Assembly (NCBI RefSeq): GCF_963677155.1 | Contig: NZ_OY781884.1 | Location: forward strand, 3,034,501-3,098,500 | DNA: 64,000 bases | Direction of reading: 5' to 3' | Source: an uncultured Draconibacterium sp. | GTDB taxonomy: Bacteria > Bacteroidota > Bacteroidia > Bacteroidales > Prolixibacteraceae | Shown: positions 11,551 to 46,430 of the stretch, in pieces | Position numbering within the stretch: the stretch's first letter is position 1 | Layout: the number at the start of each line of letters is the position of its first letter | The notes under the pieces: model-generated | Databases searched by the model: none | The model's input: only the letters and a program-made list of their open reading frames with translations | What the model was told of the DNA's origin: nothing | Position numbers and translations under genes: made by a program

Positions 11551-12807
11551 ATGAAAACGATATATTTTATACTATTTGCTGTACTTGCTGTGAGTTTTTC
11601 ATTTACAGCATGCAACGATGAAGATCCGTTCTCAACAGCTACAGCTGGTGATGATCCGCGGATACTCGACCCGATTTTCCCGGACCGCGAAAACGGAGAA
11701 CTGCCTGTAATCGCCAATATAAGCAGAGATGCCAACCTCACAATGGAGTTGACAGTTACTCCGGCCGATTATACCACCGTTTCATGGCAGATAGACGGAA
11801 CGGAAGTACAAACCGGAACAACGCTCGACATCAATCTTAAAGCAGGAACCTATCCGTTTAAAGTAACCGTTTCAACCGAAGCCGGTAAATCGACCTATCG
11901 CGAGGGTATCGTACAAGTAAATCCTTTGCAGGATGATCCGTGGGCAACGGAAACAGGCTTTGAGCGTATCATCGCCCCGGGAATAAACGCACGTCTTTAT
12001 GGCAACAATCTTAACAACGTAAAAAGCATTATTATCGATGGAACAACCATCACCAATATTGTTTACGTTGATTCAGAAGACAATGACTATATCGAGTATG
12101 AAGTTCCTGCCGATCTGGCTGAAGGTGAGCATCGTGTGGTACTGGTAGATAATGATAACAACGAGTACGGTGGTAATATCGTCAAAGTTACATATACGGC
12201 GCTTATCACTTCAGGAGCCGACCGAACCAATGCGAATAGAGAATGGGTAATGACCGGGATCAATCTCGACCAGATTGCTTCACTAACATTCGCAGGACAA
12301 ACTATCACTGAGTTTACACGGCAGTCGGCCACTGAAATCGCACTTACCTGCCCTCAATTGGAAGACGGGGAATACAAACTGACAGGTAGTACAAAAAGCG
12401 GAACAGACTTGGAATTCTATAAAGATAAAAACGTCGTTACAGAACAGACAGTCACCGTTTCTTCAACCACTGTGCTCTGGCAAGGACACCATTACGTATC
12501 GTGGGATTTGCCGGACGATAGTCCTAACAAAACTTTCAACTTGATTGGCAGTGATGTGTTTGCTACGTTAAAAGCTGGTGCTGTCTTGAGTATTCATTAT
12601 TCAGTAGCCACTGAAGCAGAATATCACCAGTTACGCACCGTTACCGGCTGGTGGAATGATTTACCAGGTACTGCTGTAATCGAGTTCTCGGAAGCCGGTG
12701 TGAAAGAGATAGAGCTAACACAAGAGATCCTAAATAAAATTCAGGATGAAAGCGGATTTCTTTGCGTAGGGCATGGTTACTATGTGGATATGGTAACCGT
12801 ACAGTAA
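11551..12807 (+). CDS. IPT/PKD-domain surface glycan-binding lipoprotein
   Basis: 418-residue lipoprotein (C21 after SFSFTA) placed where SusE/F-type surface glycan-binding proteins usually sit. The first part (about 45-125) reads as a PKD-like Ig fold (TVSWQIDGTEVQTG, AGTYPFKVTVSTEAGKS). The middle (about 130-290) contains two IPT/TIG-like repeats (LYGNNLNNVKSIIIDGTTI and GINLDQIASLTFAGQTI). The last 120 residues form a separate beta-rich, aromatic domain (WQGHHYVSWDLP, GWWNDLPG) that may hold the carbohydrate site. It starts 25 bp after susD and is followed by a strong terminator, so it closes the operon. Assignment as a binding protein rests on context and fold rather than sequence identity. 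Confidence 0.75.
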   Translation: MKTIYFILFAVLAVSFSFTACNDEDPFSTATAGDDPRILDPIFPDRENGELPVIANISRDANLTMELTVTPADYTTVSWQIDGTEVQTGTTLDINLKAGTYPFKVTVSTEAGKSTYREGIVQVNPLQDDPWATETGFERIIAPGINARLYGNNLNNVKSIIIDGTTITNIVYVDSEDNDYIEYEVPADLAEGEHRVVLVDNDNNEYGGNIVKVTYTALITSGADRTNANREWVMTGINLDQIASLTFAGQTITEFTRQSATEIALTCPQLEDGEYKLTGSTKSGTDLEFYKDKNVVTEQTVTVSSTTVLWQGHHYVSWDLPDDSPNKTFNLIGSDVFATLKAGAVLSIHYSVATEAEYHQLRTVTGWWNDLPGTAVIEFSEAGVKEIELTQEILNKIQDESGFLCVGHGYYVDMVTVQ

Positions 12808-18580: not shown

Positions 18581-21202
18581 ATGGCAAAAAAGGAAAAGAA
18601 ATATGTAGAAACACCACTTATGAAGCAATATTATGCGATCAAGGACAAACATCCTGATGCGGTTTTGCTTTTTCGTGTGGGCGATTTTTATGAAACGTTT
18701 GGAGAGGATGCCATAAAGGCGGCGGAAATCCTGGGAATTACATTAACGCGCCGGGCAAATGGTTCTGCCAGTTATGTGGAATTGGCAGGTTTCCCGTACC
18801 ATGCGCTGGATACCTATCTCCCTAAGTTGGTACGGGCCGGACAGCGAGTGGCGATTTGCGAACAGCTGGAAGATCCGAAAATGACGAAGAAGATCGTGAA
18901 ACGTGGGATTACCGAGCTGGTAACTCCCGGTGTTTCCATCAACGATAATATTCTTGAGAACCGTGAAAATAACTTCCTTGCATCGGTTCATTTCGATAAA
19001 AAGCGGGCAGGTATTGGCTTTCTCGATATTTCAACCGGAGAGTTTCTGGCCGCCGAAGGAAGTTTTGAATACATCGATAAATTATTGAATTCCTTTCAGC
19101 CCAAAGAAGTGTTGTTTCAGCGCGGAAGAGGGAAGGAGTTCAACGATCTTTTCGGAACAAAATTTTACACCTTCAACCTGGAAGACTGGGTGTACACCGA
19201 CGATGCTGCAAACGATCGCTTGACGCGGCATTTCGAAACCAGTTCGTTAAAGGGATTTGGTGTGCATAACATGCAGTTGGGCATTATTGCCGCCGGAGCA
19301 ATTATGCATTACCTTGATATTACTCAACATCAAAAATTAAGTCATATCTCTGGTTTAAGCCGGATTGAGGAAGAACACTATGTTTGGCTCGACCGGTTTA
19401 CCATTCGTAACCTGGAGTTGTTTGCTCCGCTTCACGAGAGTGGAAAAGCACTCATTAATGTGATTGATAAAACCATTACACCAATGGGATCGCGTTTGCT
19501 GAAACGCTGGATGGCACTGCCTTTAAAAGATATCGATCCGATAAATGAGCGACTGGAAGTGGTGGAGCTTTTCCTGAAAGATCCGGAGACAAAAGAAAAC
19601 CTGGAAGAACATCTTCGTCAGATGGGCGACTTGGAGCGACTGATCTCAAAAGTTGCGGTAGGACGGATCAACCCGCGCGAAGTGATGCAAGTGAAAAATG
19701 CGCTGGCGGCAATTGTTCCGATAAAAGCTGCTTGTTCCGATGTTGAGAATTCTGCATTAAATCGTTTTGCGGAGCAGTTAAATCCTTGTGATCTGATTCG
19801 GGAGAGAATTGAGCAGCAGATTGTTGCCGATCCGCCAACTGCCGTAAATAAAGGGAAAGTGATTGCCGAAGGTGTTTCCGAGGAGTTGGATGATCTGCGT
19901 AAAATCGCTTATTCGGGAAAAGATTACCTGGCGCAAATTCAAAAACGCGAAAGCGAAAAACATGGCATCCCATCGCTGAAGATCAGCTTTAACAATGTTT
20001 TTGGTTACTATATTGAGGTGCGGAACACGCATAAAGATAAGGTGCCGGCCGATTGGATTCGTAAACAAACGCTGGTTAGTGCCGAACGTTACATTACAGA
20101 GGAGCTAAAGGAATACGAACAAAAAATTCTTGGTGCTGAAGAAAAGATACAGGTGTTGGAAAGCAAGCTCTTTGGCGAGCTGATCTTTGCCTTATCGGAA
20201 TACATTTCGGCTATTCAGTTGAACTCGCATATTCTGGCTCAAATCGATTGTTTATTGTCGTACGCTACGTGTGCAACATCTTATAAATATTTCCGCCCTG
20301 AGGTGAACGATGCCACTTCAATTGAGATAAAAGAGGGGAGACATCCGGTTATCGAGCATCAATTACCAATTGGGGAGTCGTACATTGCCAATGATGTGAA
20401 GTTGGATCAGGAAGATCAACAGATCATTATTATCACGGGGCCAAACATGGCCGGTAAATCGGCACTGTTGCGTCAAACAGCATTAATTGTGCTGATGGCG
20501 CAAATGGGATCGTTTGTCCCTGCAGAAGTGGCTAAAATTGGTTTTGTGGATAAAATTTTCACCCGTGTTGGAGCATCGGACAATATTTCGTTGGGCGAAT
20601 CAACGTTTATGGTGGAGATGAACGAAGCGGCCAGCATCTTGAATAATGTTTCCGACCGCAGTCTGATTCTTTTCGATGAGCTGGGGCGAGGAACCTCAAC
20701 TTACGACGGTATTTCCATCGCCTGGTCGATTGTGGAGCATTTGCACGAACATGCTTTTACCAAAGCAAAAACACTGTTTGCCACCCACTATCACGAGCTC
20801 AACGAAATGGAAGGAGCTTTCCCGAGGGTAAAAAACTTTAACGTTTCCATAAAGGAGGTGGGTAACAAAGTTATCTTCTTGCGTAAGCTGGTTCGTGGAG
20901 GAAGCAACCACAGTTTTGGTATCCATGTAGCGGGCATGGCCGGAATGCCAAAATCGGTAATTCAACGTGCCGAGCAGATATTATCGAAACTGGAAGGCGG
21001 AAAAGAAAAGGAAAGTTTAAGTAAACCTTTAGAGGAGATTGGCGAAAACCGCGAGGGTATGCAGTTGAGTTTTTTCCAATTGGATGATCCTGTGCTAAAG
21101 CAAATTAGAGATGAGATAGCCGGACTGGATGTGAATAACCTTACGCCAATAGAAGCCCTGAACAAGCTAAATGAAATAAAGAAATTGACAGGAATTTCTT
21201 AA
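18581..21202 (+). CDS. mutS: DNA mismatch repair ATPase MutS
   Basis: 873-residue mismatch-recognition protein of the usual MutS length. The lesion-reading F36-Y37-E38 (GDFYETF) that stacks on and contacts the mispaired base is intact. The connector, lever/clamp (about 265-560) and ATPase domains follow in normal order. Walker A is GPNMAGKS (G620-S627), the Walker B region is [15 protein letters not shown], and the His of the [10 protein letters not shown] loop is present. The C-terminal helix-turn-helix dimerisation region is complete. It acts with MutL, which is not in this window. It is followed by the tRNA cluster, which has its own promoter. Confidence 0.98.
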
Positions 21203-21282: not shown

Positions 21283-21355
<73 letters not shown>

Positions 21356-21377
21356 CATTCACGATAATGCAAAGGAT

Positions 21378-21468: not shown

Positions 21469-21541
<73 letters not shown>

Positions 21542-21548
21542 CGTTAAA

Positions 21549-23832: not shown

Positions 23833-25365
23833 ATGTTAATACGTAAAACGGTACTTATTTATTTTAGCCTGTTGGTGTTTCTGTTTTCAAGTAATGCCCA
23901 GAACGAAGCACTGTCGAAAATCGATATTTCTGATTTAAAGGAATACCTTACATTTATTGCTTCCGACGAATTACAGGGACGCGAACTGGCTACCGAAGTG
24001 GATGGTTTGGAGATAGCGGCAAACTATCTGGCCGATTATGCAAAAGAAATTGGGCTGAAACCAGCTGTGGAAGACTATTTTCAAACGGTACCAATTTTAC
24101 ACACCACACTAAGTACAGATGATTTTATTGAAGTAAAGAATGAGAAGGGAAAGTCGGTTTATCGGTCGGATGAGCTAGTAAAACTTAACCAATCAGAAGG
24201 CGTTTATCGTCTCAACGAGGAGCCTGTTTTTTTTATTGGCTTTGGCGAAAATATTGATTTGTATAATTTAAAAGACAAGCTTGTTGTGGTAGCACAGGGA
24301 AATGCCGAATCCTTTACCCGCAATGAGGTATATAAATGGCAAAATCGAGTGGAGCGTGCAAAAATTAACGCTATAATGGAAAAGCAGCCCAAAGCTTTAT
24401 TGATTATTGCTAATCCGAAAGACAAGAAAAATATAAACTTTCAACAATTGAAGGGGTGGTTGAGGCGTCCGGGATACAGCGTAAAAAAAGACGAAGTATC
24501 GGAGCGACCAGCTGTTTTATTGGCAACCTCAAAAGTAGCCGATGCCTTACTGGGGAAGAGAGGTCGATACGAAAAATACCTCAAGAATCTTGTTGACGAA
24601 TCAGAAGTCGCTAAAGAAATTTCAGGAACGCTTAGCGTGAAAATTGGTTCGGAACCGGAAGTGCTACAGGAAAAAAATGTAATTGCTTACATTGAGGGAT
24701 CGGATCCGGTTTTAAAAAATGAGTACATTGTTTTTATGGCGCATTACGATCATTTGGGAGTGGGGACAAATGGCGATGTGTACAACGGTGCCGACGACAA
24801 TGGCTCGGGAACAGTAGCCATTATGGAAGTGGCCGAAGCTTTTGTTTCGCTAAAAGAAAAACCAAAACGAAGTATTGTTTTTCTGTGGGTAACCTGCGAA
24901 GAGAAGGGACATTTTGGATCAAGTTATTATTGCGATCATCCGGTGTTTCCGCTGGATAAAACAGTGGCTTCCATAAATCTGGATATGGTAGGCCGTGTAT
25001 ATGACGGCCCGCGCGACGATGTTTGGAAAGAATCGCCCAAAAAAGTGAAAGACTTTGATGGGTTGTATACCCTGTCGAACGATGTGTGGCCCGAGTTAGC
25101 CGAAATAAATGCAATACACTGTGCCGAATTGGGATTAGTGCCAGACACCAGTTTGCCGAAAGAGCGTTTTTTGCGAGCCAGCGATCATTACCATTTTCAT
25201 AAAAAAGGTGTGCCCATTTTGAATTATTCCACTGGTTATCATGCCGATTACCACAAAGTTGGCGATGAAGTGGAAAAAATTAACTTTGAAAAAATAAAAC
25301 GTGTTGCCGATCTCTGTTTCCTGGTTGGTTTTGATTTGGCTAATAAGGAAGATATTGAGTTTTAG
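23833..25365 (+). CDS. M28-family zinc aminopeptidase, secreted (copy 1)
   Basis: 510-residue exported peptidase. The start at 23833 is chosen because it begins the signal peptide MLIRKTVLIYF...SSNAQ; an upstream in-frame ATG at 23776 adds a hydrophilic 19-residue lead. The co-catalytic two-zinc M28 site is visible: MAHYDHLG (His), GADDNGSGT (bridging Asp), the CEEKGHFGS Glu pair, INLDMVGR (Asp) and a C-terminal His in STGYHADYH. An inserted PA-like region (about 120-280) precedes it. It is paired 25 bp upstream of a paralogue with the same layout, so the two probably act together on peptides in the periplasm or outside. Confidence 0.88.
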   Translation: MLIRKTVLIYFSLLVFLFSSNAQNEALSKIDISDLKEYLTFIASDELQGRELATEVDGLEIAANYLADYAKEIGLKPAVEDYFQTVPILHTTLSTDDFIEVKNEKGKSVYRSDELVKLNQSEGVYRLNEEPVFFIGFGENIDLYNLKDKLVVVAQGNAESFTRNEVYKWQNRVERAKINAIMEKQPKALLIIANPKDKKNINFQQLKGWLRRPGYSVKKDEVSERPAVLLATSKVADALLGKRGRYEKYLKNLVDESEVAKEISGTLSVKIGSEPEVLQEKNVIAYIEGSDPVLKNEYIVFMAHYDHLGVGTNGDVYNGADDNGSGTVAIMEVAEAFVSLKEKPKRSIVFLWVTCEEKGHFGSSYYCDHPVFPLDKTVASINLDMVGRVYDGPRDDVWKESPKKVKDFDGLYTLSNDVWPELAEINAIHCAELGLVPDTSLPKERFLRASDHYHFHKKGVPILNYSTGYHADYHKVGDEVEKINFEKIKRVADLCFLVGFDLANKEDIEF

Positions 25366-25390: not shown

Positions 25391-26962
25391 ATGAACACCA
25401 AATTACTTTTTACGTTTTTTTGCGTTGCAGTTTCAGTTGCGGCTGTTGCTCAAAAAAAGGAATTGCAAACGATTACCGAAAATGATTTGAGAGCGCACCT
25501 TGAATTTATTGCCAGTGACAATATGCGCGGGCGCGATTTTTTTACCGAAGTTCCGGGCCTCGATCTTGCTGCCGATTACCTCAAGTCGCAATGTTTAAAA
25601 ATGGGGTTAGCTCCCGGAGTTGAAGGTTATTTCCAAAATGTTGAGATGCAGGCTGTAAAACCGGATATGGATCAGACTATTTTTCGATTAATAGACGCCA
25701 ACGGAAATGTTAGCTACGAGACCAAAAATATTTTTTCGTTGGGAGGGCCTCCTAAAAGCGATACCATATCGGGCGAAGTGGTGTTTGCCGGTTATGGCTG
25801 GTATAACGAGGAGACAAAATACAACGACACCAAAGATCTGGATTTGAAAGGTAAAATTGTGTTGGTGATGACCCGTACCCTCGAACAGGTAAAAGAAGGT
25901 AAAAGTCCTGACATGGATACCGAAATGAGAAAAATGGTGAGAGCCTTGATGGGAGGAGCTAAAGCGGTGATTCTGGTGAACGATCCGATGAATCCGAATA
26001 CCGAATACATTGAAAGTATACGAAAATATGCAACCGGTGGAAATCTCTCATTAAAAGGAAAAAGAGGCTCGCTAATTCTTCCGATTAAGTTAATTTTTGG
26101 AACAGAAGAACTGGGGAATAAAATAGTGGAAGCAGCAGGAGAAACTTTGGCTGGTTTGCAGCAGGAGATCAATAAAAGTAAAAGTCCAAAATCATTTGCC
26201 GTCAAGAACCTGAAAACAGAAGTTAATTTGGTAAAATCAACTGAATTAATTGTTGGAAAAAACGTTATTGCAGTAGTTAAAGGCAGCGATCCTGAGTTGA
26301 AGAATGAGTGCATTGTTTTTTCTGCACATTACGATCATTTGGGAACCGACGGAAAAGGCGGTATTTACAACGGTGCCGATGATAACGGGTCGGGAACAGT
26401 AGCTTTGCTGGAAATTGCAGAGGCATTTCAAAGTATGGAAAAGAAACCTAAACGAAGCATTGTTTTTGTCTGGGTAACCGGCGAAGAAAAAGGACTGCTG
26501 GGCTCCGATTATTATTCGCAGCATCCGGTATTTGCAATGGAGAATACGTTGGTTGATATTAATCTCGATATGGTCGGCCGCTCAGCAGAAAAGGAACTGG
26601 ATTCGGTGGCGGTTAGTTCAAAAAGTTTGGCCGGTACTAACGGAATGTACATCATCTCGGGGCGGCAAAGCACCGAACTCATGAATGTTAGTGATGAGGT
26701 TTGTGAAGATCTTGGCCTTGTTCCGAGCGATGAACTAACAAAAGCTTTCCTAACACGAAGCGATTATTACCACTTTTATAAAAACGGAGTGCCAATTCTT
26801 GGTTTGTCAACTGGTCTGCACGACGATTATCATCAGATTACCGATGAGATAGATAAGATCGATTTCCTTAAAATGAAGCGGGTTGCGCAGTATGCGTTTT
26901 CGGTTGCTTACAAGCTGGCTAACCAAAAGGACCGTTTGGTTGTGGATAAGCCGGTTCAGTAA
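25391..26962 (+). CDS. M28-family zinc aminopeptidase, secreted (copy 2)
   Basis: 523-residue paralogue of the preceding gene. The start at 25391 gives the signal peptide MNTKLLFTFF...AAVAQ. Motifs are intact: SAHYDHLG, GADDNGSGTVA, GEEKGLLGS, INLDMVGR and STGLHDDYH. The middle holds a protease-associated insert (about 105-280, FAGYGWYNEETKYND, GKIVLVMTRT) larger than in copy 1. Both start with the motif FIASD followed by RGR/QGRE, a Bacteroidota M28 feature. Tandem arrangement with a single terminator after this gene indicates an operon created by duplication. Specificity unknown. Confidence 0.88.
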   Translation: MNTKLLFTFFCVAVSVAAVAQKKELQTITENDLRAHLEFIASDNMRGRDFFTEVPGLDLAADYLKSQCLKMGLAPGVEGYFQNVEMQAVKPDMDQTIFRLIDANGNVSYETKNIFSLGGPPKSDTISGEVVFAGYGWYNEETKYNDTKDLDLKGKIVLVMTRTLEQVKEGKSPDMDTEMRKMVRALMGGAKAVILVNDPMNPNTEYIESIRKYATGGNLSLKGKRGSLILPIKLIFGTEELGNKIVEAAGETLAGLQQEINKSKSPKSFAVKNLKTEVNLVKSTELIVGKNVIAVVKGSDPELKNECIVFSAHYDHLGTDGKGGIYNGADDNGSGTVALLEIAEAFQSMEKKPKRSIVFVWVTGEEKGLLGSDYYSQHPVFAMENTLVDINLDMVGRSAEKELDSVAVSSKSLAGTNGMYIISGRQSTELMNVSDEVCEDLGLVPSDELTKAFLTRSDYYHFYKNGVPILGLSTGLHDDYHQITDEIDKIDFLKMKRVAQYAFSVAYKLANQKDRLVVDKPVQ

Positions 26963-39004: not shown

Positions 39005-39811
39005 TTAGTCTTGTCCAATTTTTGATCCGAGCTTTTTGATGGCCTGTTGCATGTTGTCTATTTGTTTCATCAGCACATTAATGTCCGACTCCGGCTCTGG
39101 GATACTGGAGTTTAGGTAGCACACAAATTTCCATACTTCGGTAACATCGCCAATTGGGATATCGTACGGTTTAAATGTTTTGTTCAGCGAAATAAGGTTC
39201 AGCGAATGTTCGGAATCAATGTTGTTTTGAACCACTTTAAAAACAATACCTTCGTCGCGCGTAACAACAATATAAGCTTCTTTGCTTTTAATGTTGTAGA
39301 AGTCCTGAATGAATTCGCCAATTATGATCGATCCGGCGGGGATGGGCAACATCGAGTCGCCTTCGATGGTAAAAGCCCGGTATTTCTTTTCTTTCGACAA
39401 AAACGGCAACTGAAAAACCGGAAGTTTTCCGATGTATTCCGGGTCGGCAAAACAATTTACATAACCGGCTTTAGTTTTTTCGTTTACAAACTCAATATTG
39501 TCGTTGTTGTCCGAATCAACAGTCGTCGCAATTACCCGCAATTTCGAGCCGCGTATGAATACATCAAATCCATTTTGCAGATCGGTGAACTGACTTTCTG
39601 ATAATTGTTGCATATCAATATTAATCAGTGTGTCGATGGCGATGCCAAAATATTTCGAAAAAGTCTGAAGGTGTGAAACCGTAGGTTGGCTAATCTCATT
39701 TTCGAGGGCATTTACCGAAGTTCGTTTTAACTTCAGCGCTATAGCCACCTCGTTTTGTGTACGTTTTTTTCTTTTTCGTAACAGCTTGATATTCTTTCCA
39801 AAGAAGTTCAT
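39005..39811 (-). CDS. XRE-family repressor with S24 (LexA-like) protease domain
   Basis: 268-residue DNA-binding regulator. Residues about 7-62 form a HTH_3 domain (TQNEVAIALKLKRTSVNALEN). Residues about 115-225 are an S24 domain with nucleophile S153 (GDSMLPIPAG) and general base K192 (VFKVV). An Ala-Gly pair (A115-G116, KAGYVNCFADPEY) lies 38 residues before S153, where LexA-type proteins cut themselves, so RecA-stimulated self-cleavage is plausible. The C-terminus is a short coiled coil (MKQIDNMQQAIKKL). It is divergent from the radical SAM/DUF4130 pair; palindromic GATAAT sites lie between them, suggesting autoregulation and control of those genes by DNA damage. Confidence 0.88.
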   Translation of the reverse strand: MNFFGKNIKLLRKRKKRTQNEVAIALKLKRTSVNALENEISQPTVSHLQTFSKYFGIAIDTLINIDMQQLSESQFTDLQNGFDVFIRGSKLRVIATTVDSDNNDNIEFVNEKTKAGYVNCFADPEYIGKLPVFQLPFLSKEKKYRAFTIEGDSMLPIPAGSIIIGEFIQDFYNIKSKEAYIVVTRDEGIVFKVVQNNIDSEHSLNLISLNKTFKPYDIPIGDVTEVWKFVCYLNSSIPEPESDINVLMKQIDNMQQAIKKLGSKIGQD

Positions 39812-40042: not shown

Positions 40043-41332
40043 ATGAATGAAGCAGTACATGAAAAACTGAAAATATTATCCGATGCCGCAAAATATGATG
40101 TGTCGTGTGCATCGAGCGGGAGTAGCCGGGCAAATACCAGCAAAGGAATTGGCAGCGGTGTGGCATGTGGTATTTGCCATAGTTTTACCGAAGACGGGCG
40201 CTGTGTAAGCCTGTTTAAAATACTGATGACCAATAATTGTATTTACGATTGTGCTTACTGTATTAATAGACGTACAAACGACCGTCCGCGGGCAACTTTT
40301 ACGGCACAGGAAATTGTGGATCTTACAATCGGTTTTTACCGCCGAAACTACATTGAAGGATTGTTTTTGAGTTCGGGCGTGATAAAAAGCCCGGATTACA
40401 CTATGGAGCGGATGGTGTTGGTGGCTAAAAAGCTTCGCAGCGAAGAGAACTTCAATGGCTACATTCATTTGAAAGCAATTCCGGGAGCCAGCCGCGAGTT
40501 GATTAGTGAGGCCGGAATCTGGGCTGATCGGTTGAGTGTAAACATGGAAATCCCGACAGAGCCAAACCTGAAAAAGCTGGCGCCGGAAAAAAGCTACCCT
40601 GACATTGTAACTCCCATGGGGCAAATCCGCGATTCGATTCTTGTGGCGAAGGAAGAACGGCAAAAGTACCGAAAAGCACCGCGTTTTGCTCCGGCCGGAC
40701 AAAGTACACAATTGATTGTTGGAGCCACTCCCGAAACCGACCGGCAGATTATTTTGCTCTCGTCGGGATTGTACAAAAAACAAAACCTGAAACGTGTATA
40801 TTTTTCGGGCTACCTGCCGGTGAACAGTTATGATGAGCGTTTGCCAGCGATTAACCGGCCGCCGTTGGTGCGCGAAAACCGTTTGTATCAAAGCGATTGG
40901 CTGATGCGGTTTTATCATTTTAAAGCCGAAGAAATTTTAAGCGAAGATCAGCCATTTCTGGATTTGGATGTTGATCCGAAACTGGGATTTGCGTTGCGAA
41001 ATATGCATCTGTTTCCGGTGGATATTAACCGCGCTGATTACGAAATGATTCTTCGGATTCCAGGTGTTGGGGTACAGTCGGCGCAAAAGATTATCCTGGC
41101 GCGTAAACACCGCCGGCTAAACTCACTGCATTTGAAAAAACTTGGAATAGTGATGAAACGTGCCAAATACTTTATTACCTGCAACGAGTTGTCTGCCTAC
41201 AAAATGGAATGGGAACCGCAGCGGTTAAAACACAAATTATTGTGCGAAATAAATTCGAAATACAAAAAGTCGCTTGATACGCAGTTGAAACTGTTTACCG
41301 ATTTTAAGCCGGTGTTGCCAACACTTCATTAG
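40043..41332 (+). CDS. Putative DNA modification/repair radical SAM protein
   Basis: 429-residue radical SAM enzyme of the group found next to DUF4130 and uracil-DNA-glycosylase-like proteins (the UDG-linked rSAM family). The cluster motif CxxxCxxC is C66, C70, C73 (CIYDCAYC). Extra cysteines in CASS, ACGICH and GRC (residues 22-54) precede it. The TIM-barrel part is followed by a helix-hairpin-helix (about 335-385, ILRIPGVGVQSAQKIILARKH), indicating DNA binding. The next gene, 49 bp downstream, is its usual partner. The chemistry is not established for this family; a DNA-damage role is inferred from the HhH domain, the partner and the LexA-like repressor beside it. Confidence 0.9.
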   Translation: MNEAVHEKLKILSDAAKYDVSCASSGSSRANTSKGIGSGVACGICHSFTEDGRCVSLFKILMTNNCIYDCAYCINRRTNDRPRATFTAQEIVDLTIGFYRRNYIEGLFLSSGVIKSPDYTMERMVLVAKKLRSEENFNGYIHLKAIPGASRELISEAGIWADRLSVNMEIPTEPNLKKLAPEKSYPDIVTPMGQIRDSILVAKEERQKYRKAPRFAPAGQSTQLIVGATPETDRQIILLSSGLYKKQNLKRVYFSGYLPVNSYDERLPAINRPPLVRENRLYQSDWLMRFYHFKAEEILSEDQPFLDLDVDPKLGFALRNMHLFPVDINRADYEMILRIPGVGVQSAQKIILARKHRRLNSLHLKKLGIVMKRAKYFITCNELSAYKMEWEPQRLKHKLLCEINSKYKKSLDTQLKLFTDFKPVLPTLH

Positions 41333-41381
41333 TCTCAGTTTTCTGTCGCAGTATCCAGTATCTAATTTTTAGTATCCAGCT

Positions 41382-42155
41382 ATGAAAATATATACCTACG
41401 ATAATACTTTTGAGGGATTTTTAACCTGCGTTTTTGATTGCTACAACCGAAAAGATTTTCCGGTTGATATTTGTTCGCGTAATGGCGAGCAGCGCTACCT
41501 TTTTGTTGAGAGTATTGATATTTCTACTGATTCGAAAAAAGCAGAACGGGTTTGGAAAGGTATTCAGAAGCACCTGTCGGGGAGAAACAAGCAGTTGCTT
41601 TTTTATGCCTACTTATCGGAAGAGTTAGGGATTGAAATGAAGATCTACCGTTTTTTACGCCGTATGTTCAGCGGGCACTTGAACCTGGAGACCGACTACG
41701 GCGATCCCGATGTCCTGCATCTCACACAGACCTCTCAAAAGGTAAAAAAGGAAGCCATGCGTATGCTGCAGTTTGTGCGGTTTCAGCGCACAAAAGACCA
41801 GATGTATTTTTGCGGCATCGAACCCAGGTACGATGTGATTCCGTTAATCATTAATCATTACCAAAAACGTTTTGCCGATCAGCGCTGGCTGATCTATGAT
41901 TTGCGGCGTAACTATGGAATTCTGTACGGTAGCGAAAAGGTGGAAGAAGTGGTATTGACGAAAAAGCAGTTTAATGCCTACAACGGCCAGGTAAAAGAGG
42001 AGTTGTTGCATGAGGGCGAAGATTTTTATCAAAAACTTTGGCGCTCGTACTTTAAACATGCAAATATTGAAGAGCGCAAAAACCTGAAATTGCAACGCCA
42101 GCACATGCCGCGACGCTTTTGGCGTTATCTGCCTGAAAAACAGGAGGCGAATTGA
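41382..42155 (+). CDS. DUF4130-domain DNA-metabolism protein (radical SAM partner)
   Basis: 257-residue protein of the TIGR03915/DUF4130 family, which almost always lies beside the DNA-repair radical SAM gene and in other bacteria is fused to a uracil-DNA glycosylase domain. Here it is a stand-alone partner. Visible segments are YDNTFEGFLTCVF at the N-terminus, RMLQFVRFQRTKD and IEPRYDVIPLI in the middle, and the conserved tail NIEERKNLKLQRQHMPRRFW. Function is unknown; context indicates DNA repair. Its last 112 bases recur as a diverged copy at 45026-45137, beyond the KAP cassette, so its 3' end has been involved in a recombination event. The reading frame itself is complete. Confidence 0.88.
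   Translation: MKIYTYDNTFEGFLTCVFDCYNRKDFPVDICSRNGEQRYLFVESIDISTDSKKAERVWKGIQKHLSGRNKQLLFYAYLSEELGIEMKIYRFLRRMFSGHLNLETDYGDPDVLHLTQTSQKVKKEAMRMLQFVRFQRTKDQMYFCGIEPRYDVIPLIINHYQKRFADQRWLIYDLRRNYGILYGSEKVEEVVLTKKQFNAYNGQVKEELLHEGEDFYQKLWRSYFKHANIEERKNLKLQRQHMPRRFWRYLPEKQEAN
42044..42155 (+). repeat. Direct repeat, copy 1 (3' end of the DUF4130 gene)
   Basis: 112 bases inside the DUF4130 gene, ending at its stop codon. They match 45026-45137 at 99 of 112 positions without gaps. The encoded 36 residues plus stop differ from copy 2 at only two residues (Ala-Asn against Ile-Thr). Similarity ends exactly at the stop codon. Confidence 0.9.
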
Positions 42156-42318
42156 TGCCGTTCTAAAGTATGAAGGCAATAAAATCTAATTTTAATAAAA
42201 TATATTTTCATTTAAAGAATTGTATAATCTCATATTCCTGAAATTCAAAATAAAGAATTAGTCAACTTAAAAGTAATTTTTTTATTTTTATGTATTCTTT
42301 CTGAAATCCTAACTAATT

Positions 42319-44022
42319 ATGAATAAGACTAATTTACCTCCAACGAAAATAAAATCAAGAATTGATTTTTGGAAGCGATTTTCAATCACCTTATCCGTTT
42401 TATCCGTTTTAATTATTTTAGGGCCATTAATTCTGCAACTCTTTTTCTCAAAATTTACTGTTCTACTCTCACAATTGATAGAATATGATTATGAATCTAA
42501 AGAATTTTGGATAGTCATTTTCAGTCTGGTAGTCCTAGTCTGTTATATTCTTAAATCCTTTGAGAATAACGCATTTCCAAATAGAAGTAAGTTTCTGAAT
42601 GATTTGGTAATTGTTTTTTTATGTGGATGGTACTGGCTCTTCTTACGTACTGAAGTATACGAAATCAATGGTATACAATTTGAGCTTGAATCATATTCCT
42701 TTGTCAATTTTAAATATTTCGATTTTCTATTAACTCCTGGAATATTTAGCTTGTTTAGACTGATATCAGATTTTATTTCAAGGAGTAAAAAAATAGAACA
42801 TAGGTCAGTGTGGATAAATGATAAGCCATTGGTTAATATTGAATCAGAGGATTTTGGGCGTAAGGAGTTAGTAAATAGAGTCGTAAGTGAAATCAATTCA
42901 TTTTCGGACCACGAGAGTTCATTCACAATTGGAATTGTTGGTCCTTGGGGGTCGGGGAAAACGTCTTTTATCAAGATATTACAGGATAAAGTAAACACTG
43001 GGCAAAATATTATTATTGATTTTAATCCATGGCAGTATCCTGAAGAGACGAATTTGACTCGTGTATTTTTAAAGGAAGTAGAAAAGCATTTATGTCGCTA
43101 TTCTTTTTCTACCAACAGAATCAATGATTATTTGAATCAGCTTTTTAAGGGGAACATAAATTGGTGGGGGACTTTAACGAACTTATTTATTAAGGAGAAA
43201 AACATTCGAGATGTACATGAAAGTATAAAAGAGTCTATATTAGATGCAAAGAAGAGACTCATCGTTTTTATTGATGACATAGATAGGTTACAAGCAAATG
43301 AAGTTTATGAGGTTTTAACTATAATTCGGAATATTGGGAATTTACCTAACACTGTTTTTGTGTTAGGATATGATAAAGATTATTTATTAGATATACTGGA
43401 AGATAAGATTAAACATCCTCAACGTTACTTGTCTAAATTCTTCCAAGTTGAGTTTTCTCTTAGTAAAATAACAGATTTAAAAGTAAGAGAAGAGTTGGCT
43501 AATAAGTTGGAGATATCTTTTCCCGAATTTAAAAAGGATTATGTTGCTAGTTCTAATGAAGAAGAATTTGAGTCTGCTGATGCCCTCCTGCAGAGTATTG
43601 AAATTGTAAAGCTTCTGAAAAATAAGCGAGATGTAGTTAAATTGATGAATGTGATTAATACTACTTGGCCAATTTTAAGAGAAGCATTAGTTTTAAGAAT
43701 ATATTTACAGCTAGAAATATTACGTCTAAAGTACGGAAATATTTATTCGAAGTTAAAATATAGAGATAAAGACTTTTTAATTGAAAATGAAAGTGCAAAA
43801 TTGTACCTTTTTAAGACTGATGTAAAATTGGATGAAATAGTTAAGAATTCCAATGACAGAGATATTATCATATCAACATTATCATCGATGTTTCCAAATA
43901 ATGGGAGAGAGAGAAATTTAAAGTCAATTCGGCGAGTTGAAAAATTTGATTCTTATTTTCAAAACCAATTGACAACATCTGCATATGAAGAATTAGAGCA
44001 ACTTAGAGGAAATGAAGAATAA
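42319..44022 (+). CDS. KAP-family P-loop NTPase, membrane-anchored
   Basis: 567-residue protein. The N-terminal third has three likely membrane spans (about 21-43, 63-80, 93-109). The P-loop domain follows: Walker A GPWGSGKT (208-215), the KAP hallmark FNPWQ (235-239), Walker B LIVFIDDIDRL (314-324) and sensor-like NTVFVLGYDKDYL (344-356). KAP NTPases are signalling ATPases; some (such as plasmid F PifA) block phage. Homologues are often longer, with the helical C-terminal part in the same chain, while here the chain ends at FDSYFQ...LRGNEE and overlaps the next ORF by 11 bp. DNA is clearly more AT-rich than its neighbours (28% G+C in 43501-43560 against 43% in 41161-41220), which points to transfer. 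A defence role is inference. Confidence 0.88.
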   Translation: MNKTNLPPTKIKSRIDFWKRFSITLSVLSVLIILGPLILQLFFSKFTVLLSQLIEYDYESKEFWIVIFSLVVLVCYILKSFENNAFPNRSKFLNDLVIVFLCGWYWLFLRTEVYEINGIQFELESYSFVNFKYFDFLLTPGIFSLFRLISDFISRSKKIEHRSVWINDKPLVNIESEDFGRKELVNRVVSEINSFSDHESSFTIGIVGPWGSGKTSFIKILQDKVNTGQNIIIDFNPWQYPEETNLTRVFLKEVEKHLCRYSFSTNRINDYLNQLFKGNINWWGTLTNLFIKEKNIRDVHESIKESILDAKKRLIVFIDDIDRLQANEVYEVLTIIRNIGNLPNTVFVLGYDKDYLLDILEDKIKHPQRYLSKFFQVEFSLSKITDLKVREELANKLEISFPEFKKDYVASSNEEEFESADALLQSIEIVKLLKNKRDVVKLMNVINTTWPILREALVLRIYLQLEILRLKYGNIYSKLKYRDKDFLIENESAKLYLFKTDVKLDEIVKNSNDRDIIISTLSSMFPNNGRERNLKSIRRVEKFDSYFQNQLTTSAYEELEQLRGNEE

Positions 44023-44863
44023 TCTTTCATTTAAAAATAAGGTGTATGATTTGTGGAATAGAAATCCTGAAACAAGGGATGACACAATTGGATATTTATT
44101 AAGTATAGATAAGTTTCAGTCTTTTCAGGACTGGAAGAAAGTTATTGAAGTGTATTTTGAAGTTGATACATATTTTCTAGAAAAACATTCGGATAAAATT
44201 ATTGATGTAATTCATAAAGGGCAGGATGAATTTTCTAAGGATGAGGTATCAGGTTTTTTGGTTGATTATTTAAAAGAAGATTCGAAGATTGAATATAATT
44301 ATTCAAATTTTCTTTATTTGCTTAATCAACAACACAAAAAAACAAATAAGGATTCTCGTACGACATTCACAAAAAAGGAGTTACAAGAGATATGTTTAGG
44401 AAGGCTAGAGCGATTTATTAAGAGCTCAATTAAAGATGTTGAAATTGCATTTAACATTTTATATTCGTGTTGGGATTATGTGGATGATGATAATATAGTC
44501 CATATTTCAGGTGCAGCTCTTGAATTAATTCGAGGCTATATTGACGAAGTGCCGGAACAATATCTAAGATTCATTATTAGACATCAATTTTATCCAATCA
44601 ATCCAGACATTTCAGGAGGACGATATATTTTTGTACTAGAACCTTTTACAAAACAGATATTTAAAGGATGGGATAATTATGAGTTCTTTTTAAAGAAATT
44701 GCAAGAGAATTCAAATGTAAACAGAAAAACGGTTGAATGCAATCTGAAATTCTATAGGTTATTTAAGTTAAATAATTACGAAAGTGTACCAATTCATAAA
44801 GATGACCTTAAGTTGTTTAAACATTGTTCGAGACAAATTGAAGATATTTTAAATGATATTTGA
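44012..44863 (+). CDS. Uncharacterised partner of the KAP NTPase
   Basis: 283-residue soluble protein, not recognised. The start ATG at 44012 lies inside the last codons of the KAP gene (11-bp overlap, different frame), which implies translational coupling. No signal peptide, membrane span or Cys/His metal motif is seen. The sequence is helical and charged, with a notable segment YIFVLEPFTKQIFKGWDNYEFFL near residues 210-232 that recalls the C-terminal region of longer single-chain KAP ATPases. It may therefore be the C-terminal half of a split KAP protein, or an effector or adaptor controlled by the NTPase. AT-rich like the KAP gene. Confident as a gene; function unknown. Confidence 0.8.
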   Translation: MKNNLSFKNKVYDLWNRNPETRDDTIGYLLSIDKFQSFQDWKKVIEVYFEVDTYFLEKHSDKIIDVIHKGQDEFSKDEVSGFLVDYLKEDSKIEYNYSNFLYLLNQQHKKTNKDSRTTFTKKELQEICLGRLERFIKSSIKDVEIAFNILYSCWDYVDDDNIVHISGAALELIRGYIDEVPEQYLRFIIRHQFYPINPDISGGRYIFVLEPFTKQIFKGWDNYEFFLKKLQENSNVNRKTVECNLKFYRLFKLNNYESVPIHKDDLKLFKHCSRQIEDILNDI

Positions 44864-45025
44864 TAACTTCATACTCGATTATTTTATTAAAAACTAGATT
44901 ATCTGTTGTGGGTAATTAATTGTCATTTCCTTTTGCATTAGCAGCAAAATAGAGATATTATCAAACGTAAAAACTGATCCAATTCATACCATAGATAAAG
45001 ACCCTGAATCAATAAAAATCTGACT
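44864..45025. other. AT-rich spacer at the right end of the KAP cassette
   Basis: No gene. The last ~20 bases (ATCAATAAAAATCTGACTCTCG) still resemble the DUF4130 sequence ATCAAAAACTTTGGCGCTCG that precedes copy 1, so weak homology may extend left of the clean 112-base repeat. No integrase, tRNA or hairpin end was found here. Confidence 0.45.
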
Positions 45026-45137
45026 CTCGTACTTTAAACACATCACTATTGAAGAACGCAAAAACCTAAAATTGCAACGCCAGCACATGCCAAGGCGTTT
45101 TTGGCGTTATCTGCCCGAAAAACAGGAGGCGAATTAA
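45026..45137 (+). pseudogene. Displaced 3' end of a DUF4130 gene (direct repeat, copy 2)
   Basis: Ungapped 112-base match to 42044-42155 with 13 differences. The frame stays open to TAA and reads SYFKHITIEERKNLKLQRQH and onward, with only Ala-Asn to Ile-Thr changed, so divergence happened under protein-level selection. A TGA lies two codons upstream and there is no start, so it is not expressed as a protein. A strong terminator begins about 20 bases after its stop, whereas none follows copy 1. This suggests copy 2 is the ancestral end of the operon, separated from its gene by the cassette. Confidence 0.85.
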
Positions 45138-45156
45138 GCTTAGTCGATATTGAACG

Positions 45157-45202
45157 AGAAAAAGGCTCAGATCTTTTTAATAGATCTGAGCCTTTTTTTT
45201 TC
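45157..45202. terminator. Strong bidirectional terminator
   Basis: AAAAGGCTCAGATCT and AGATCTGAGCCTTTT form a perfect stem with a short AT-rich loop. T-runs follow on the plus strand and, read backwards, on the minus strand. It serves the DUF4130-remnant side (plus) and the permease gene (minus). Confidence 0.92.
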
Positions 45203-45224: not shown

Positions 45225-46430
45225 TTATAAATCTTCCTTTTTTGTTGCCGGCAATACCAAATTCAGAATAATACCTACTGCTGCAGCCAGCCCAATTCCG
45301 GCCAGCGAGAAGGTTCCGTATGAAATAACGGCACCACCAATTCCAACGGTAAGAACAATTGAAACAATAACCTGGTTACGGGTTTCATCCATGTTGGTTT
45401 TTGAATCAACCAGCGTTTTAATACCGATAGATGCAATCATTCCGAAAAGAAGAAGCATAATTCCGCCAAGCACCGCCTGTGGAATGGTTTTCAGGAACCC
45501 GCTGATTTTTCCAACAAAGGCGAAAACAATTGCTGTTATGGCTGCTATGCGTAAAATGAATGGATTGGTAACCTTGGTAAGTGTTATGGCTCCGGTTACT
45601 TCAGAGTAAGTGGTGTTAGGCACACCTCCGAAAAATCCGGCCAGACCGCTGGCAATACCATCGCCAAGCAGCGTACGGTGCAAACCTGGTTTTTCAATAA
45701 AGTTTTTGTTGCATACACCACCAATGGCATACATATCGCCCACATGTTCGATAATTGGAGCAATGGCTACCGGTATCATATACAAAATGGCCTGCCAGCT
45801 AAATTCAGGAGCGGTAAACTCTGGCAGACCTATCCATGCTGCTTCTTTTATTGGTGTAAAATCAACTTTTCCCATTATTATGGAAAGAATGTAGCCAACA
45901 ATTATGGCAATGAAAATTGGGATCAGTTTGATCATTTTCTTGCCGAAAATAACTACTGTAACGGCTGTAAGTAGCGAAACTACAGCAACCGTCCAGTCGG
46001 TTTTTGCCATGTCAACTGCTGTAGATGCCAGCGATAATCCGATTAACAGGATGATAGGGCCAACCACAACCGATGGGAAAAGCCGCTCGACAAAGGTTAA
46101 GCCGCGTAGTTTAACCAGTGCTGATACTACGCCGTAAACCACACCTACAGCAATAATTCCCGAAAGTGTACCGGGCCAGCCATAAAGTTTTGTGGCTTCA
46201 ATAATTGGAGCAATAAAAGCAAAGCTGCTACCCAGAAAAACAGGTACCTGTCCTTTGGTAATTAAATGAAAAAGCAGCGTGCCTATACCTGCTGTAAAAA
46301 GCGCAACGGCCGGATCGATGCCCACAAGTAATGGGACCAAAACGGTAGCACCAAAGGCCACAAATAAGAACTGCACACCCAATACGGTGTTTTTTAAGGT
46401 TAACTGTTCACGTAAAGTTTTACCACTCAT
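45225..46430 (-). CDS. uraA: Uracil permease, NCS2 (UraA/PyrP-like) family
   Basis: 401-residue inner-membrane nucleobase:proton symporter with about 14 membrane segments. NCS2 features are visible: FVAFGATVLVPLLVGIDPAVALFTAGIGT at the N-terminus, the substrate-site segment around ALAPIIEHVGD-like (VAIAPIIEHVGD, Glu of TM8), and GFFGGVPNTTYSEVTGAI with the TM10 Glu, both typical of uracil rather than xanthine transporters. Length agrees with UraA. It is a single gene between two hairpins; no pyrimidine operon is nearby and no PyrR-type leader was recognised. Substrate is assigned by family resemblance. Confidence 0.88.
   Translation of the reverse strand: MSGKTLREQLTLKNTVLGVQFLFVAFGATVLVPLLVGIDPAVALFTAGIGTLLFHLITKGQVPVFLGSSFAFIAPIIEATKLYGWPGTLSGIIAVGVVYGVVSALVKLRGLTFVERLFPSVVVGPIILLIGLSLASTAVDMAKTDWTVAVVSLLTAVTVVIFGKKMIKLIPIFIAIIVGYILSIIMGKVDFTPIKEAAWIGLPEFTAPEFSWQAILYMIPVAIAPIIEHVGDMYAIGGVCNKNFIEKPGLHRTLLGDGIASGLAGFFGGVPNTTYSEVTGAITLTKVTNPFILRIAAITAIVFAFVGKISGFLKTIPQAVLGGIMLLLFGMIASIGIKTLVDSKTNMDETRNQVIVSIVLTVGIGGAVISYGTFSLAGIGLAAAVGIILNLVLPATKKEDL

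Follow-up and report, generated by a model that had tools for sequence, protein, structure and literature searches.

Small defence cassettes often lie in genomes without an integrase to explain their arrival. We analyzed a stretch of 64,000 nt from an uncultured Draconibacterium sp. (the window; all coordinates are positions within it), in which a gene for a KAP P-loop NTPase and a second gene, ORF2 (open reading frame 2), lie between two copies of the 3′ end of a DUF4130 gene, a putative DNA-repair gene. The closest described events come from homology-facilitated illegitimate recombination (HFIR), whose junctions, according to part of the account in PMC3240628, usually show 3–10 matching bp and a deletion. 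In E. coli, that same portion of PMC3240628 reports, 56 of 60 unexpected clones gave a PCR product of a duplicated part of the homologous end, 109–950 bp long in the 14 that were sequenced. For the modules of the Vibrio type VI secretion system (T6SS), displacement of a gene end through one-sided homology is proposed in part of PMC5361080. The nearest named defence protein is PifA, which an excerpt of PMC8594841 describes as an abortive-infection system whose suggested mode of action is the sensing of T7 proteins and killing through membrane depolarisation. At the locus described here, the repeat is best read as the scar of a transfer in which a DUF4130 allele and the KAP pair behind it would have been imported as one block and joined illegitimately inside the recipient's own DUF4130 gene.

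The repeated gene end and its empty counterpart

A search of 38–50 kb for direct repeats of at least 25 bases returned a single one, at 42032–42153 and 45014–45135 (spacing 2982, 87%). According to a sequence-only reading, a second copy of the last 112 bases of DUF4130 lies 2,982 bp further on, differing at 13 positions and in two residues, and this was confirmed: 42044–42155 and 45026–45137 show 13 mismatches, with two residue changes (A to I; N to T) and different stop codons (TGA for copy 1, TAA for copy 2). A chance origin of the repeat is excluded, because at E ≤ 0.001 a 141-base query against the whole 5.27-Mb single-contig genome returned the two copies (1e-68 and 1e-36) and no third. 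The locus is laid out as follows.

41382–42155, plus strand: DUF4130/TIGR03915 gene, 257 aa, intact, ending in copy 1 and TGA (PF13566 7e-50, TIGR03915 1e-79)
42044–42155, plus strand: tail copy 1, interpreted as the allele of the donor; 88.4–89.3% identical to clade A, with 4 sites unique to the window
42156–42318, plus strand: AT-rich DUF4130–KAP spacer; its right part aligns with the region upstream of the G020 KAP gene, its left part weakly with the DNA after the G020 DUF4130 gene
42319–44022, plus strand: KAP P-loop NTPase, 567 aa (PF07693 1.9e-36; PADLOC PifA 2.6e-44)
44012–44863, plus strand: ORF2, 283 aa, detached C-terminal domain of a long KAP protein; its first 11 nt overlap the end of the KAP gene
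44864–45025, plus strand: spacer without a relative among the loci compared; holds a 35-codon open frame
45014–45026, no strand: right junction, 9 of 13 positions recipient-type
45026–45137, plus strand: tail copy 2, interpreted as an orphaned 3′ end left over from the recipient DUF4130; TAA; 95.5% to G031, 93.8% to G032, 0 private sites
45156–45200, no strand: stem-loop terminator (z −5.8), matched in the G032 empty site, between convergent genes

The GC content of the cassette is ~0.28–0.33 (about 30%), against mostly 0.38–0.49 around it. About 20 bases 3′ of copy 2, the stem-loop has a folding energy of −29 kcal/mol, where shuffled sequences average −12 (z −5.8), whereas the 68 bases 3′ of copy 1 fold unremarkably (z −0.7), in line with the earlier statement that a strong terminator follows copy 2 only; a simple terminator scan did not list this stem-loop. 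The 35-codon frame (44916–45023) stops at the copy 2 junction, perhaps as the last part of a further donor gene; in 140 genomes of the family it had, besides itself, one weak match (E 0.02).

We compared the locus with a genus sample of 37 genomes, the window's own included (relatives are labelled G and their fetched stretches L). Full-length DUF4130 was found in 26 of them, that is, the window and 25 relatives, each of which gave one match per whole genome; one further genome held a 33-residue match. A second match, the tail, was present in the window's genome alone, and a whole-genome protein search returned no second tail in any of the 25 DUF4130-bearing relatives. At the DNA level, 26 stretches were fetched, 25 of them with DUF4130, and the tail occurred once wherever the gene was present, bar trivial matches of 16–18 nt.

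Two neighbouring genes matter for what follows.

45225–46430, minus strand: uracil/xanthine permease (PF00860 5.7e-94), to the right of DUF4130 in 21 of the 25 relatives and of the KAP pair in G020
40043–41332, plus strand: radical SAM gene (TIGR03916), the partner of DUF4130 and its left neighbour, possibly within the imported tract

In those 21 relatives, the permease lies on the fetched stretch at a variable distance from DUF4130: 18–164 bp in nine; ~1.5–1.7 kb in seven, holding a 411-aa ORF that reads by eye as a PQQ-type beta-propeller; 407 bp in G007, containing what reads by eye as the end of that ORF; and 489, 2,407, 8,810 and 8,829 bp in one relative each. The permease is off the fetched stretch in three relatives and on a separate contig in G020. 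The slot between DUF4130 and the permease is thus variable in content, being empty or holding a propeller-like gene, its remnant, or 0.5–8.8 kb of other DNA. The expectation that relatives would carry different cargo between duplicated tails did not hold, since none of the 25 has a second tail, though the contents of the gap do vary.

A tree of the permease and three more downstream genes (5,190 columns, 14 rows) fully supported the window as sister to G032 (100/99), with G031 next. In G032 a single DUF4130 gene is followed by 100 bp and then the permease, which is the empty site that had been predicted, with one DUF4130 tail running into a terminator. Copy 2 and the G032 tail have in common the TAA stop, which some other relatives also have, a short spacer and the terminator. 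Because of this match, copy 2 is to be regarded as the original end of the DUF4130 gene, as the sequence-only reading had suspected. Had DUF4130 been duplicated in tandem, the second gene then losing its 5′ part and the KAP pair being inserted, a 3′ fragment in direct orientation would also have been left. However, all 25 DUF4130-bearing relatives are without a second gene or tail, the two tails differ as those of different species do, and copy 2 runs into a G032-type empty site. We rejected this very improbable course because none of these 25 relatives has a second gene or tail; named earlier as an event that would overturn the insertion model, an ancient tandem duplication found no support.

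Within the genus sample, KAP (82%) and ORF2 (80%) recur in one other member, G020 (Maribellus sp. YY47), and ORF2 was not found in 35 of the 37 genomes; six short peptide patterns run against genome contigs, a search sensitive to close relatives only, likewise picked out 1 relative among 25 candidates. In G020 the pair is next to the same permease; ORF2 has a terminator of its own behind it and no second tail. The G020 DUF4130 gene ends ~215 bp before a contig end, and the contig with KAP starts 228 bp before that gene. Both of these contig ends are multi-copy repeats (7 and 8 places including the query, of which 5 of 7 and 4 of 8 begin within a contig's first three bases), so that an insertion sequence probably splits a once contiguous DUF4130–KAP–ORF2 order. 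Consistent with this order, the DUF4130–KAP spacer of the window matches the upstream side of the G020 KAP gene (78% over 97 bp, E 1e-13); a 55-bp match after the G020 DUF4130 gene (73%, E 0.06–0.09) is no better than chance matches and was counted only for its expected position. The window and G020 therefore probably share the order but not the duplicated tail.

Since G020 carries the pair without a second tail and none of the 25 relatives has one, the repeat is no part of the cassette, contrary to the earlier view that the duplicated tail brackets it, and is most plausibly a transfer scar. That view had itself been made to depend on relatives not carrying the pair without a duplicated tail. 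G020 is such a relative, but it is one genome, and it redirects the model and does not end it.

It is common for islands to rebuild a gene's 3′ end, and such restoration speaks for a site-specific island with the 112-bp repeat as an att-like sequence and its integrase acting in trans or lost, as does the single-chain KAP homologue of G035, which lies near a tyrosine recombinase and a relaxase. But the repeats are 87–88% identical and not identical (13 differences in 112), and a Pfam scan of 12 window proteins from 36.7–52.2 kb, one of them without any family, found no integrase or transposase family. With the repeat-free pair at the same locus in G020, these points led us to reject an att-type island, which we find scarcely credible.

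What moved and how it may have been joined

The NTPase core (KAP residues 166–567) is 91% identical in DNA and 92% in amino acids between the window and G020, with a synonymous divergence (dS) of ~0.3, whereas the flanks are far more diverged (DUF4130 73%, permease 76%, and three further neighbours 68–79% in DNA; dS ~1.5 or more, or saturated, and for DUF4130 and the permease 1.7 or more, or saturated). This difference argues that the core was exchanged between lineages long after their hosts split. KAP residues 1–165 (42319–42813), compared with G020 stretch L031, are only 55% identical in amino acids and 65% in DNA (dS 1.4), against 92% in the rest of the protein, so that the N-terminal membrane module has a history different from that of the core and seems to have been separately exchanged.

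To the right of the cassette the window follows G032, as seen above. To its left, a sister relation with G032 is rejected for the radical SAM and DUF4130 genes together (p 7e-8) and for the radical SAM gene alone (p 0.011), and a grouping with G031 and G032 is rejected for 41000–42155 (p 0.036). The DUF4130 body is 87.6–89.2% identical in DNA to five relatives, here called clade A, and copy 1 is 88.4–89.3% identical to them, while among themselves these relatives average 91.7% in the body and 91.2% in the tail (88.4–93.8). Copy 2, by contrast, reaches 90.2–95.5% to clade A and has no private sites, versus four in copy 1. Identity to G032 is 92.5% at 45.2–51 kb, 90.7% at 51–63.5 kb and 87.8% at 22–42 kb. 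It is the left side that looks odder, because a distant 20-kb sample of the same genome gave 91–92%; a second distant sample, at 4.2 Mb, returned no long collinear match. The left block and the cassette were thus most likely imported, as far as these comparisons indicate.

The same identities could be turned round, with the cassette old at its locus and a G032-like relative as the source of the right side, from tail copy 2 and the terminator through the permease and further on. G020 does have the pair at the same locus, and identity to G032 is indeed higher on the right than on the left, but next to the distant sample (91–92%) and the 51–63.5 kb stretch (90.7%) the downstream value resembles the genome background, and an old cassette would have to be squared with ORF2 not being found in most of the genus sample. 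We consider this alternative improbable.

At the right junction, the recipient sequence of which was taken from G032 and G031, homology is clear from ~45026 and fuzzy at 45014–45025: 4 of 17 positions match at 44997–45013, 9 of 13 at 45014–45026 (longest exact run 4, AAAA), and nearly all thereafter. Such a junction is compatible with an illegitimate joint aided by a few matching bases.

From these observations we propose, with moderate confidence, a block import of a DUF4130 allele and the KAP pair that was illegitimately joined inside the recipient DUF4130. The recipient would have started with a G032-like order of DUF4130, terminator and permease, and would have taken up DNA from an unsampled relative with the order DUF4130–KAP–ORF2, the order G020 probably had before its insertion sequence. 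Homologous recombination at or upstream of DUF4130 would have swapped the recipient gene for the donor allele, and the other end would have been joined, at the junction observed, in an HFIR-like process without real homology, inside the recipient DUF4130 and 112 bp from its end. The donor DUF4130 would stay intact and be followed by the KAP pair, with the final 112 bp of the recipient gene and its terminator left as a scar. The earlier suggestion that an allelic tail came with the cassette through homologous or end-replacement recombination, and not through an integrase, fits best with these results, the 12 scanned proteins being without one. What changes is the picture of a two-gene insertion that restored the gene: an allelic tail was probably imported, but as part of a DUF4130–KAP–ORF2 block and not in a fresh insertion.

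Another route to the same arrangement is a single crossover of a 2,982-bp circle carrying the last ~112 bp of DUF4130 and the KAP pair, which would leave hybrid tails on a recipient gene body. The length of the circle would equal the repeat unit, and part of PMC3240628 explains the E. coli duplications by circles, shortened at the homologous end, that recombined through a single crossover. Yet body and copy 1 are alike in their divergence and copy 2 is recipient-like throughout, so that the crossover would have to lie near the very end; moreover, no integrase was found nearby, and the G020 pair has no second tail. A circle is a rather unlikely source, though the least unlikely of the alternatives to block import.

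Several observations weigh against block import as proposed. ORF2 is 81.5% identical to its G020 counterpart with a dS of 1.1–1.3, nearer the flanks than the core, so that the case for recent movement covers the core only. Copy 1 lies at the edge of the clade A tail range of 88.4–93.8% and not outside it. For DUF4130 alone, neither a sister relation with G032 (p 0.14) nor a grouping with G031 and G032 (p 0.27) is rejected, and the latter also stands for the radical SAM gene alone and for the regulator at 39005; a tree of 40043–42155 even groups the window with G031 and G032, with poor support. The discordance comes mostly from the radical SAM gene, where G031 or G032 may themselves have recombined. 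The tail sites favour copy 2 by 10 to 3 for G031 (p 0.09) but by only 7 to 5 for the clade A consensus. With most of the discordance lying there, and 112 bp being too short to decide, the direction of transfer is the weak point of the proposal. In addition, no left breakpoint was found, identity to G031 and G032 being 87–88% over the whole of 22–42 kb; the donor has to be an unsampled relative; and HFIR, as part of PMC3240628 describes it, mostly deletes recipient DNA, whereas the window duplicates 112 bp instead.

The regulator at 39005–39811, a helix-turn-helix and peptidase S24 protein, precedes the radical SAM/DUF4130 repair pair, and our guess is that it may control the pair in an SOS-like manner. 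An Rfam scan of 41.3–45.3 kb gave no match. Elsewhere in the window, a 172-nt direct repeat (73%; 24672–24843 and 26257–26428) lies in two adjacent long frames that are probably paralogues, and two 77-nt copies, 99% identical (21283–21359 and 21469–21545), look by eye like tandem tRNA genes. Stretch L098 holds a dispersed repeat of ~230 and 66 bases (12239–12557 and 19871–19936), found in dozens of places among the matches listed for the six relatives searched, and without an Rfam match.

The KAP–ORF2 protein and its likely role

KAP scores 126 bits on PF07693 against a curated cut-off of 20 and has a Walker A motif at 207–216, a Walker B motif at 315–320 (IVFIDD at 315) and, by simple hydropathy, two strongly hydrophobic N-terminal segments at 25–43 and 63–81. 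ORF2 alone gave no family above cut-off in Pfam, PADLOC and further family scans, and a first ORF2 profile recovered only the window itself from a phylum sample (1 of 395). In the family, ORF2-like sequence occurs in 3 of 140 genomes, the window and G020 among them; in G095 it forms a stretch (35%, E 2e-18) within a long frame that is itself a KAP protein. Of six long KAP candidates compared with ORF2 by hhalign, the one from G035 aligned over 200 columns (E 4e-4, probability 34%) and the remaining five yielded no match. A wider ORF2 profile, which includes the long KAP homologues, matched 16 of 393 genomes of an order sample at E ≤ 0.01, window included. At nine other loci from that sample (L105–L113), a KAP frame was present on the stretch in four; two of these (G620 and G073) match the narrower ORF2 profile too, and G652 and G613 the wider one only.

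The single chains measure 850 aa in G095 and G620, 856 in G652 and 859 in G035, with 685 in G073 and 1000 in G613, while KAP and ORF2 of the window add up to 567 + 283 = 850 aa. Because single-chain homologues of 850–859 aa exist, the homology identifies KAP and ORF2 as the two halves of one long KAP NTPase, split in the same way in both genomes that have the split, the window's and G020. ORF2, earlier taken for a separate gene of unknown kind, is on this evidence a detached KAP domain. As single-chain KAP homologues carry an ORF2-like part, an unrelated hitch-hiking gene was rejected.

Outside chromosomes, a search of plasmids for the same DNA gave no match, and a protein search with KAP hit 1028 plasmid records, all under 60% identity and none covering 80% of the query. 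Phages gave one KAP match (25.5%), IMG/VR nine loci at 23–29% only, and solved structures nothing convincing. In G035 (L117, 4909–12645), the 859-aa KAP lies near the tyrosine recombinase and relaxase mentioned above, so that the KAP family may also travel on a mobile element.

The best PADLOC match of KAP is PifA (2.6e-44), in two stretches of which the better covers positions 155–352 of the 720 of the model and is thus partial. A PifA-like membrane defence is our best guess for the pair. The KAP protein (ORF1) would be a membrane-anchored NTPase with a variable N-terminal module and ORF2 its detached C-terminal domain; judged from the family and from the neighbourhood of homologues, ORF1 would sense infection at the membrane and, together with ORF2, halt growth of the infected cell. 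In G095 (L116, 7743–19976; 5 of 11 frames scanned with PADLOC), the single-chain KAP belongs to a restriction-type operon, flanked by a DrmMI- or type IIG-type methylase on one side and a GmrSD-type gene (GmrSD_N) on the other; the operon also has an AlbA_2 protein and, further up, a DpdE/DrmD-type helicase. Against such a role, the antiviral link is one of association only, and the portion of PMC8594841 cited above notes that PifA stops few phages and questions whether immunity drove its evolution.

With an empty sister site, a relative with the pair at the same locus but no repeat, and a scar, import without an integrase onto a housekeeping gene can be examined here base by base. Recognizing ORF2 as a detached KAP domain names an orphan gene and offers a candidate two-subunit PifA-like system in Bacteroidota. 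Taken further, the DUF4130 3′ end might be a recurrent docking address for defence modules that pass between these bacteria without an integrase, carried as an extension of a housekeeping repair gene, each arrival displacing the old gene end, and the split KAP a two-chain sensor with a separately exchanged N-terminal module, but this is speculation to which we give little credence.

Comparison with known systems

Like the window KAP, PifA of the F plasmid is a KAP NTPase; unlike PifA, the window chain is split in two and has N-terminal hydrophobic segments and the ORF2 domain. KAP falls below the threshold for Qat (QatA 54 bits against a cut-off of 600); the Pfam names of the scanned neighbours are of kinds other than QatB, QatC and QatD, the Qat-specific scan having covered only the pair and DUF4130. 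A link to DISARM or type IIG restriction comes from G095, where the KAP and ORF2 homologue directly follows the DrmMI- or type IIG-type methylase. Neither DrmA nor DrmB turned up among its PADLOC-scanned frames, which gave a DrmMI-type gene only, and the Pfam-scanned neighbours of the window pair include no methylase or helicase family and thus no Drm core genes.

For the transfer itself, HFIR in S. pneumoniae, A. baylyi, P. stutzeri and E. coli, as characterized in part of PMC3240628, combines one homologous side with one illegitimate joint and a gain of non-homologous cargo, and the import proposed here would combine the same elements; on the homologous side, the window shows tree discordance left of the cassette, but no breakpoint was found. 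The T6SS modules and rhs tips of Vibrio cholerae, in the part of PMC5361080 that describes them, have a conserved upstream anchor, behind which a new module enters and old sequence, once an effector 3′ end, is moved downstream, much as is proposed for the window. Vibrio cholerae, however, is described there as exchanging effector–immunity modules of different type, whereas the anchor in the window is a putative repair gene and the orphan its own 3′ end. The mechanism and the protein family both belong to known types; the novelty lies in the splitting of the KAP pair and the clarity of the scar.

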